From assembly GCA_016776905.1 (NCBI GenBank), contig JADHSM010000005.1:62001-126000 (forward strand): DNA of 64,000 nt, given 5' to 3'. Below the pieces are notes generated by a model. It saw only the letters and a list, made by a program, of their open reading frames with translations, ran no database searches and had not been told where the DNA came from. This DNA comes from Planctomycetota bacterium (GTDB lineage: Bacteria > Planctomycetota > UBA8108 > UBA1146). This document shows, in pieces, positions 45,604 to 49,108 of the stretch. Each line of letters opens with the position of its first letter. The first letter of the stretch is position 1. Made by a program: the position numbers and the translations under genes.

Positions 45604-47289
45604 TCAGGCGAATCTACGGTGGGTTCCCCTTGGAACATCAGGATCATCACCGCGCTCGATGCGCTCCTGACGGATTTTCTCGGCGTACGCTTCGTAGGAC
45701 CCTTCAAAGAACCGGCCCCCACCCTCTCCATCTAAAGCGAGGATATTGGTCGCCACTCGATCCAAGAAGTACCTGTCGTGGCTGACCACGATGGCGCATC
45801 CAGGGAATGCTTCCAAAGCTTCTTCGAGAAGTCTAAGAGTTGGGATGTCTAGGTCGTTAGTCGGTTCGTCGAGGATGACCAGATTTCCACCACGACGAAG
45901 CATCTTCGCCATCTGAACTCGGTTCCTCTGCCCCCCGGAACAATCTCCGACCTTCTTCTCTTGCTCTTCTCCGGTAAATCCAAATCGAGCCACGTAAGCC
46001 CTGCTGGCAATCTCGACCTTACCCACCTGAAAGACGTCGTATCCTTCAGAGATGTTATCGTAGATCGTATTGTTGTTTTCCAATTCCTGACGACTCTGAT
46101 CCGCAAAGCAAAGTTGAACCGTAGAGCCCAATTCAACTTTTCCAGCGTCTGGTTCGATTTGATCGGCGATCAATCTCATCAATGTGGTTTTGCCCGCACC
46201 ATTGGGGCCAATAACGCCAACGATAGCGCCTGGACGAAGTTCAAAAGAGAGATCATCAAAAAGAGTTCTTCCGTCGTAGGACTTGGTCATTCCTTTAACT
46301 TGCAGAACCTTGTCTCCCAATTTGGTCTCGCATGGAATCGCCAATGCAGGAACATCTTTTCGCGATTCGTATACTTGTTCCTGAAGCTTATGGAATGACT
46401 CAACCCTAGCTTTACTTTTCTTAGCTCGAGCTCTAGGGGTTTGGCGAATCCAGTCTAATTCCTTGTTGAGTTGCTTCCGGCGATCATCTTCTTGCCGAGC
46501 TTCAACTTCCAATATCTTCGATTTTTGCTCAAGGTATTGACTGTAGTTTCCTTCAAAGGGAGTTCCGCGCCCTCGATCGATTTCCAACATCCAACCGACA
46601 ACATTATCCAAGAAATAGCGGTCGTGAGTGATGAGCAAAACAGTACCCTCATAGTTAGCGAGGTGTCTCTCTAACCATGCTGTAGTATCTGCGTCTAAGT
46701 GGTTGGTAGGCTCGTCAAGAAGCAAGATATCGGGATGCGCCAATAGAGTTTTGCACAGGGCAACCCGTCTTTTTTCGCCACCGGAAAGGTGTGCGACCAT
46801 CGAGTCCCCTGCAGGACAATTGAGGGCGTGCATCGCTTGATCGATCTGTCGATCAATCTCCCACGCATCAGAGCCATCAATTTTTTCCTGAAGTTCAGCG
46901 AGGCGATCATAGGCCTCCTGCATATCTTTCTCGGACAACTCAGTGGCAAGAGATTCTGTTACAGCATTATATTCTTCAAGAAGTTTGCGAACCTTTTCGG
47001 CTCCAATCTCTACGTTCTCTCGAACTGTCTTTGTCTCATCCAGAGAAGGTTCCTGCGGAACGTAACCAATGGTGGCACCTCTGGCGAGAGTCACAATTCC
47101 ATCATAACCATCATCCACACCTGCAATGATCTTCAACAGCGTGGACTTTCCACAACCGTTAATTCCGATCAATCCAATCTTGGCACCTCTGAAGAAGCCT
47201 AAGGTGATTCCTTTAAGAACGTCCTTCGTCCCAAAGGATCTGTGGACGTCGGTGACCTGGAAGATGACTTCCTGAGAATCGCTGCTCAT
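45604..47289 (-). CDS. ettA: Energy-dependent translational throttle A, ABC-F ATPase
   Basis: A 561-residue soluble ABC-F protein with two ATPase domains: Walker A GINGCGKST and GPNGAGKT, signatures HLSGGEKRR and CSGGQRNR, Walker B ILLLDEPTNHLD and LVILDEPTNDLD. The linker between them (QTPRARAKKSKARVESFHKLQE) is of the EttA kind. It has no membrane part; EttA binds the ribosome E site and gates the first peptide bond according to ADP/ATP. Length agrees with E. coli EttA. It follows the selenoprotein gene by 39 bases on the same strand and may share its transcript. Confidence 0.93.
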   Translation of the reverse strand: MSSDSQEVIFQVTDVHRSFGTKDVLKGITLGFFRGAKIGLIGINGCGKSTLLKIIAGVDDGYDGIVTLARGATIGYVPQEPSLDETKTVRENVEIGAEKVRKLLEEYNAVTESLATELSEKDMQEAYDRLAELQEKIDGSDAWEIDRQIDQAMHALNCPAGDSMVAHLSGGEKRRVALCKTLLAHPDILLLDEPTNHLDADTTAWLERHLANYEGTVLLITHDRYFLDNVVGWMLEIDRGRGTPFEGNYSQYLEQKSKILEVEARQEDDRRKQLNKELDWIRQTPRARAKKSKARVESFHKLQEQVYESRKDVPALAIPCETKLGDKVLQVKGMTKSYDGRTLFDDLSFELRPGAIVGVIGPNGAGKTTLMRLIADQIEPDAGKVELGSTVQLCFADQSRQELENNNTIYDNISEGYDVFQVGKVEIASRAYVARFGFTGEEQEKKVGDCSGGQRNRVQMAKMLRRGGNLVILDEPTNDLDIPTLRLLEEALEAFPGCAIVVSHDRYFLDRVATNILALDGEGGGRFFEGSYEAYAEKIRQERIERGDDPDVPRGTHRRFA

Positions 47290-47328
47290 CTCTTAACCCG
47301 TCTCTCTAAATGTGTCACGTGACCGTAA

Positions 47329-47556
47329 TCAGACCTGGCGGTCTTCAATCGCGGAATAGATTTCTGAATGCTCCGGGAATCGACTGAGCTCTTTCTTGCT
47401 GAATACAAGTTCTCCATCGATCACAACCTCAAAAACGCCGCCTCCACTTTCAATGAGACGAGCATCTACACCGAACTTATCTTTAAGGTCAGCCGCCAAA
47501 CTGGTGGCCTGTGGGGTGTAGTTTCACTTCACACAGTATTCAATACTGATATCCAT
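47329..47556 (-). CDS. SelW-like (Rdx family) selenoprotein with in-frame UGA
   Basis: A 75-residue protein that is found only if a UGA at codon 11 is read as selenocysteine. The N-terminus is MDISIEYCVKU with U at the UGA, giving the CxxU redox motif, then NYTPQATSLAADLKDKFG, LIESGGGVFEVVIDG and LVFSKKELSRFPE, all typical of SelW/SelT/SelH-type Rdx proteins. AAGGAG precedes the ATG. The frame ends at a second UGA after the normal family length. A hairpin with a G-containing apical loop begins about 14 bases after the first UGA, as a bacterial SECIS element requires. The protein is a small thioredoxin-fold redox factor. The cell would need SelA, SelB, SelC and SelD, which are not in this window. 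Confidence 0.85.
47491..47509 (-). promoter_or_regulatory. Candidate bacterial SECIS hairpin
   Basis: In the mRNA the stem GGCC-A-CCA / UGG-C-GGCU closes a GUU apical loop, with one A-C mismatch, starting 14 bases after the UGA at codon 11. Position and the G in the loop fit known SelB-binding hairpins. Confidence 0.6.
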
Positions 47557-47743
47557 CTGCCTTCTCCTTCCCGACACAAGATTTGAATCTTGCAGTTTAA
47601 TGCCCCTAAGCAGGGCTTCGTCCTAATTTTTAATCAGATCCGGAGGAATCCCGTCACCTTCAACTCCCCCAGTCCCGTCCTTGGGTTTATGGTAAGGAAC
47701 ACTTTGAGTGTGTACCAGCAGACCGAGGAAGCAGGAGGACGAA

Positions 47744-49108
47744 ATGCAGGATGTGATTGAACAGCTGTCCGCAGGGCGTGAAGAACACGTCCAAAAACTG
47801 ATCGAATGGCTCAGAATCCCCAGTGTCTCCACCGATTCGAGCCTCAAGTCCGAGGTTCAGAAGGCAGGGCAATGGATTCAGGCGGAATTACGAGATGCGG
47901 GTTTCGAGACTCGCCTCGACGAAACTGAAGGACATCCGGTCTGTTTCGCCCAATGGAACGGGGCAGAGGGGGCTCCCACCCTTCTGATCTATGGCCACTA
48001 TGATGTTCAGCCCCCCGAGCCTCTTGAGTTGTGGCGACATGGGGCATTTGAGCCCACCCTCGAGGGAGAAGATCTGATCGCCCGGGGAGCCACCGACGAC
48101 AAGGGTCAGGCTTTAGCCCTCGTCCGCGGAGTCTGCGGAGTCCTGCGCACAAGAGGTTCCTTACCCATCAACGTCAAGTTTGTCATCGAAGGTGAAGAAG
48201 AGATTGGGTCTCCCCATCTCGCCGGCTACCTCGAATCTCACAAGGAAGAGTTGGCAGCGGATGTCGCCTTGGTGGCTGATTGCTCCCAGTTCGGTCCCGG
48301 CATGCCTGCGATCACCGTCGGGCTCAAAGGACTGGTATACCTTGAGCTTCATGTTCAAGGCCCCAATAGAGATCTGCACTCCGGTTCTTTTGGTGGAGCT
48401 GTCGAAAATCCCGCCAATGCCCTCACGCGAATGCTTGGAAGCCTACGGGATGAAGAAGGCCACATCACCATTCCAGGATTCTATGATCAAGTCAGAGAAC
48501 TCACTGAAGAAGAACGTACTTCTATGCGGGAGTTGCCATTCAAAGAGGAAGAGTTCCGCTCTGATTTAGAAGTTCCTCGTGTTCATGGAGAAGCAGGTTT
48601 CTCCACTCTTGAAAGAAAATGGGCTCGCCCCACACTCGATATCAATGGATTGCTCAGTGGTTGGACTGGAGAAGGTGCAAAAACTGTCTTGCCGGCACAC
48701 GCCAGTGCCAAGGTGTCGATGCGACTCGTCCCGGATCAACACCCGGATGAGATTGCAGAATTGGTCCAAAATCATCTGCACTCGATTTGCCCTGATACCT
48801 GCACCCTGACTGTTCATTGCCATCATGGCGCCCGCCCTGTGCTCGTCGAACAAAACAGTCCATGGCTCGACGCCACGTCTCGCGCTATAGAAAAAGGTTT
48901 CGGCAAAGCCCCTGTCATGATTCGGGAAGGTGGCTCTATTCCGGTCGTCAGTGATCTCAAGGAGACACTCGGCATCGATACGATTCTTCTTGGACTAGGT
49001 CTTCCCGATGACAACGCACACTCTCCCAACGAAAAATTCCATCTTCCCGATTACCAGCGAGGAATCGAAACGATGGCTTGGTTGCTGGAGGAGATGAAAA
49101 ATTGTTAA
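47744..49108 (+). CDS. M20 family dipeptidase
   Basis: A 454-residue cytoplasmic metallopeptidase. The zinc site is visible: LLIYGHYDVQPPEP (His and following Asp), RGATDDKGQALALVRG (bridging Asp), FVIEGEEEIGSPHL (catalytic Glu and Glu ligand), VALVADCSQFG and late His in DNAHSPNEKFHLPDY. The insert LHSGSFGGAVENPANALTRML is the dimerisation domain. It cleaves dipeptides or similar amides. The ATG has GCAGGAGGACGAA ahead. Its end overlaps the start of the pirin gene. Confidence 0.93.
   Translation: MQDVIEQLSAGREEHVQKLIEWLRIPSVSTDSSLKSEVQKAGQWIQAELRDAGFETRLDETEGHPVCFAQWNGAEGAPTLLIYGHYDVQPPEPLELWRHGAFEPTLEGEDLIARGATDDKGQALALVRGVCGVLRTRGSLPINVKFVIEGEEEIGSPHLAGYLESHKEELAADVALVADCSQFGPGMPAITVGLKGLVYLELHVQGPNRDLHSGSFGGAVENPANALTRMLGSLRDEEGHITIPGFYDQVRELTEEERTSMRELPFKEEEFRSDLEVPRVHGEAGFSTLERKWARPTLDINGLLSGWTGEGAKTVLPAHASAKVSMRLVPDQHPDEIAELVQNHLHSICPDTCTLTVHCHHGARPVLVEQNSPWLDATSRAIEKGFGKAPVMIREGGSIPVVSDLKETLGIDTILLGLGLPDDNAHSPNEKFHLPDYQRGIETMAWLLEEMKNC

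Follow-up and report, generated by a model that had tools for sequence, protein, structure and literature searches.

Our analysis points, with a probability of about 97%, to a functional gene for a SelW-like (Rdx) selenoprotein in a planctomycete, in which an in-frame UGA would be read as selenocysteine (Sec) by means of SelB, Sec-tRNA-Sec and a hairpin within the gene. The predicted coding sequence lies at 47329..47556 on the minus strand of the window, as we call the whole stretch of 64,000 nucleotides that was analysed. The case is built from sequence data, namely the frame, its homology, the Sec machinery of the genome, covariation in the putative SECIS element, conservation and selection.

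According to the proposed mechanism, the UGA at 47526-47524 (codon 11) would be decoded by SelB and Sec-tRNA-Sec, and SelB would be recruited by the coding-region hairpin located 14-32 nt past the UGA. Sec would be made by SelA, with selenophosphate provided by SelD, itself a predicted selenoprotein. The gene would encode 75 residues, Sec included, with the redox motif CxxU, and for this protein we infer Sec incorporation, redox activity and a substrate. By analogy with its family, it may serve as a cytosolic thiol/selenol oxidoreductase or as a redox adaptor.

A SelW-like reading frame interrupted by UGA

Starting from the ATG at 47556 (minus strand), the frame reads MDISIEYCVK (the ATG and nine codons), followed by an in-frame TGA (47524..47526), 64 further codons and a terminal TGA (47329..47331). 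Seven nucleotides 5′ of the ATG, a Shine-Dalgarno-like AAGGAG could be read directly (47564..47569, minus strand), and purine-rich stretches precede the start codon in many relatives of the gene as well. Every element of the original prediction, that is, the frame, its coordinates, the ribosome site, the in-frame TGA, the 64 downstream codons and the stop, was found in the sequence. The prediction also held that gene callers overlook this gene on account of its UGA. This is probable, as the frame is left uncovered by standard ORFs of 60 aa or more, and a 72-aa antisense ORF (47368-47586, plus strand) is listed in its place.

For profile searches, the UGA was translated as a residue. The product matched Pfam Rdx (PF10262) with 69.8 bits (cut-off 22.6; E = 2.3e-19) over profile positions 2-74 of 74. 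It also exceeded the cut-offs of the NCBIfam model NF041051 (SelT/SelW/SelH; 95.8 bits vs 88) and of TIGR02174 (CXXU_selWTH; 59.9 bits vs 34.2). Solved Rdx proteins, among them 2fa8, 2ljk and 3dex, were matched by sequence, and in both printed alignments the UGA position corresponds to Cys: the CVKU of the product aligns with CTQC of Atu0228 (2fa8). The match to Rdx/SelW is thus far beyond chance, and the predicted family membership, with Sec at the CxxU position, was borne out by the alignments. No other Rdx protein was found in the genome.

Selenocysteine machinery and conservation of the UGA

The genome assembly that contains the window comprises 26 contigs with a total of 2.92 Mb, is 94.5% complete and carries all components expected of an organism that decodes Sec. 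We identified selA (C6:97906-99267, 521.8 bits), selD (C6:99395-100318, 347.8 bits), selC, the gene for tRNA-Sec (C6:100529-100622, 65 bits; anticodon TCA by ARAGORN), and selB (C6:226663-228543, 365.6 bits), each above its curated cut-off. The first three are mutually adjacent. Sec decoding by this organism had been implied by the original prediction, which saw a lack of selB or selC as evidence against itself; both are present in the genome.

The selD gene contains one in-frame TGA, around which its product reads SCAG-U-AAK; we take this to be the site that is normally Cys or Sec in SelD. Five further genes have a UGA at a redox position, with UxxC or CxxU among their motifs: a Prx-like gene (TPG-U-TRQC), three Trx-like genes (YS-U-GIC, GDW-U-GPC and ATW-U-GPC) and an AhpD-like gene (CHY-U, a CxxU motif). 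Together with the SelW-like gene, this amounts to at least seven predicted selenoproteins. The six additional loci (L121, L122, L123, L124, L125 and L076) could be truncated or split in standard annotation. Comparable families, namely Trx-like UxxC, AhpD-like CxxU, Prx TxxU and SelD, appear in a list of marine selenoproteins (PMC2398784).

We collected relatives from 59 genomes, ranging from the same genus to the same phylum and including the genome under study. A SelW-like homologue was found in 36 of them, and 35 of the 59 have the UGA form. Extra loci came from named genome contigs of Planctomycetota, Krumholzibacteriia, Geobacteraceae, Tissierellia, Chloroflexi and others. In all 54 full loci, which span several phyla, TGA occupies the exact Sec position, although these do not equal 54 independent lineages, because they include the copy in the window itself and count some genomes twice. 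Cys stands at this position in distant relatives. One locus (L073) has no usable Sec site, and another (L075) ends after 26 codons.

Such conservation bears on the simplest alternative, an error of sequencing or assembly in which a Cys codon (TGC or TGT) was misread as TGA. The two codons are one base apart, and the sequences of the relatives are mainly metagenome assemblies. The same TGA nevertheless recurs in many separate assemblies from several phyla, is followed by a covarying SECIS and occurs in a genome with Sec machinery. Its presence at all 54 loci led us to reject this explanation, to which we assign a negligible probability.

Equally remote is the idea that a nonsense mutation turned the SelW-like gene into a pseudogene. 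Under the standard code the frame does contain a stop, but dN/dS downstream of the UGA is about 0.05-0.15 in comparisons with relatives from the family, where dS is unsaturated, and the codons after the UGA are under purifying selection. Moreover, the loci show no other internal stop and no frameshift. The pseudogene reading was discarded in view of the UGA shared by the relatives and of this selection.

The terminal stop, on the other hand, varies among the loci between TGA, TAG and TAA. Since the gene ends in TAG or TAA at the corresponding site in relatives, the last TGA acts as a stop, which speaks against a general reassignment of UGA to a sense codon (a Trp or Gly code, with nothing specific to selenium). 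A reassigned code is known from a few bacterial lineages and would be in keeping with the TGA that also terminates this copy. It hardly fits the alignment of the internal TGA with Cys of Rdx proteins, nor a genome holding a tRNA-Sec and the full sel set. In addition, the window contains 379 TGA-bridged frames, and among the 80 listed only the SelW-like gene looked convincing. The TCA anticodon of tRNA-Sec and the varied terminal stops argue so strongly against reassignment that we give it practically no weight.

For selB, a match above the cut-off was found in 31 of the 35 genomes with the UGA form and in 14 of the 24 without it (Fisher p = 0.012, uncorrected for relatedness). The four relatives that have the UGA gene and no selB match over the cut-off are incomplete assemblies, so that assembly gaps are the simplest explanation.

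While collecting loci, we noted that QNYK01000019.1 (L054), titled Bacillota bacterium, shows the gene order of the planctomycete family and encodes proteins 70-83% identical to those of its members. For this reason its label is probably wrong.

A hairpin that covaries at synonymous positions

The candidate bacterial SECIS is a hairpin at 47491..47509 (minus strand) with seven pairs (4+3 around an A.C mismatch) and a GUU loop, laid out as UGA-(14 nt)-GGCC A CCA GUU UGG C GGCU. It begins 14 nt past the UGA, and its loop lies 22 nt past it. The published bSECIS model asks for a loop of 3-9 nt located 16-37 nt after the UGA, an upper stem of 4-16 bp and a G at loop position 1 or 2 (PMC13188914). 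The hairpin agrees with these constraints in its loop of 3 nt with G first, its seven pairs with one mismatch and its distance of 22 nt.

An Rfam search of the window at gathering thresholds gave zero matches. By its folding energy, the hairpin does not stand out from shuffled sequences, 62 of 200 of which fold equally well or better (z = -0.43). The GUU-loop hairpin of the original prediction is therefore present at the distance of a bacterial SECIS, while the argument first made for it was weak, energy alone being at chance level. It is the covariation among relatives that supplies the evidence.

Across 38 distinct sequences, the seven pairs were formed in 92.5% of cells, as compared with 83.3 +/- 1.1 in shuffles and 18-53% in versions slid along the sequence; cells with both sides changed numbered 20, against 4.9 in shuffles. 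The covariation score was 0.335 vs 0.162 for shuffled data, a value reached by none of 500 shuffles, with phylogeny ignored. The strongest signal comes from a pair between the third positions of two Ala codons. Where both codons are kept, we counted C..G 25 times, G..C 6 times, and T..A, T..G and C..C once each (Fisher p = 8e-6, uncorrected for phylogeny). As these are third positions of Ala codons, their covariation is beyond the reach of protein constraint. The G of the loop is invariant, as AGT/AGG or GGT/GGG is used at this codon throughout, and never TCN. Thus, a bacterial SECIS after the UGA is backed both by the published constraints and by covariation.

In the Firmicutes homologues from Tissierellia and Fonticella (L067, L068, L069 and L074), a hairpin with the stem AGAGC..GCUCU and an AGUU loop lies about 5 nt nearer to the UGA. 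Such a distinct form indicates that one and the same protein has different SECIS elements in different phyla.

Other families of the class have a paralogous Rdx branch, which served as a useful though imperfect negative control. In its seven copies, Sec is replaced by Gly (CxxG; L077 316-525 (+), L078 345-542 (-), L079 441-644 (-), L080 332-532 (-), L081 384-590 (-) and L084 36-248 (+)) or by Ala, with Ser for Cys in addition (L085 325-534 (-)). At least one inner hairpin pair is broken or the loop G is gone in all seven; L077 and L079 keep most pairs and have pair 19-35 broken. Because all seven genomes carry the UGA form elsewhere, the branch seems to be a non-catalytic or repurposed copy of SelW.

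The original prediction had counted close relatives with neither Cys nor Sec at this site as evidence against itself. All close relatives have UGA there. Other families of the class do contain such homologues, the CxxG paralogues, but they do not contradict the Sec reading, since the same genomes hold both a UGA copy and paralogues without the hairpin pairs. Synonymous-position covariation, combined with the loss of pairs in non-Sec paralogues, makes this gene a clean example of a bacterial selenoprotein supported without experiment.

Gene neighbourhood and known selenoproteins

Two neighbours of the gene are conserved. An ettA-like gene for an ABC-F ATPase (45604..47289, minus strand) lies 39 nt 3′ of the SelW-like stop, and a gene for an M20-family peptidase (47708..49108, plus strand; start codon provisional) is divergent. 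The order M20 peptidase, selW, ettA (window 45604-49108) was found in all 16 genomes examined (L020-L035), which belong to the family or its sister family and include our own. With a gap of 39 nt on the same strand, a selW-ettA operon is likely. In more distant loci, beyond these two families, no ettA neighbour was found; the weak matches there are other ABC ATPases.

EttA is an ABC-F ATPase that gates translation according to energy state, and we know of no functional reason for its pairing with selW. That the pairing reflects functional coupling in this planctomycete order, with selenium or redox state tuning the downstream translation factor via UGA decoding, strikes us as highly doubtful. 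Very little credence goes to the UGA as mainly a regulated stop, which would end a 10-residue leader while minor, selenium-dependent Sec readthrough controlled ettA. UGA recoding does compete with release factor 2, and 30-40% recoding in vivo has been reported (PMC4513850); the position directly upstream of ettA would also suit such control. However, the entire 64-codon part past the UGA is under protein-level constraint, which a leader would not need, and outside the two families ettA did not turn up next to the gene. We favour the reading as a SelW-like selenoprotein gene.

This reading leaves the general view of selenium biology unchanged. It adds a poorly cultured planctomycete group that, by our prediction, decodes UGA as Sec and possesses seven or more selenoproteins; redox genes of this group are thus likely to be shortened or left out in standard annotation. 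The planctomycete Porphyra isolates P1 and P2 are described as having, like our genome, complete sets of Sec-insertion genes along with several selenoproteins; SelW is not named in the main text of that paper (PMC4807772).

The SelW-like family itself is long known, and the planctomycete gene is a well-supported further case with the canonical SelB/SECIS mechanism. A 2006 study lists SelW-like selenoproteins among those of bacterial genomes (PMC1794560). The Campylobacter SelW (CJnc60) was missed in annotation (PMC4607533) and has ribosome-profiling and peptide evidence (PMC11955535), whereas the planctomycete copy is known from its sequence. Both are UGA-encoded proteins of about 75-80 aa, and the latter scores above the cut-off of the NCBIfam model SelTWH_Campy.

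The original prediction also regarded Sec forms of Rdx as common in the sea. Indeed, in the Global Ocean Sampling survey, SelW-like proteins were the most numerous prokaryotic selenoprotein family, with 427 Sec vs 56 Cys homologues (Zhang and Gladyshev 2008, PMC2398784). The planctomycete copy shares with this marine set the family, the CxxU motif and the downstream bSECIS; we found no difference in kind, and the copy is set apart by its place in a planctomycete genome group and next to ettA.
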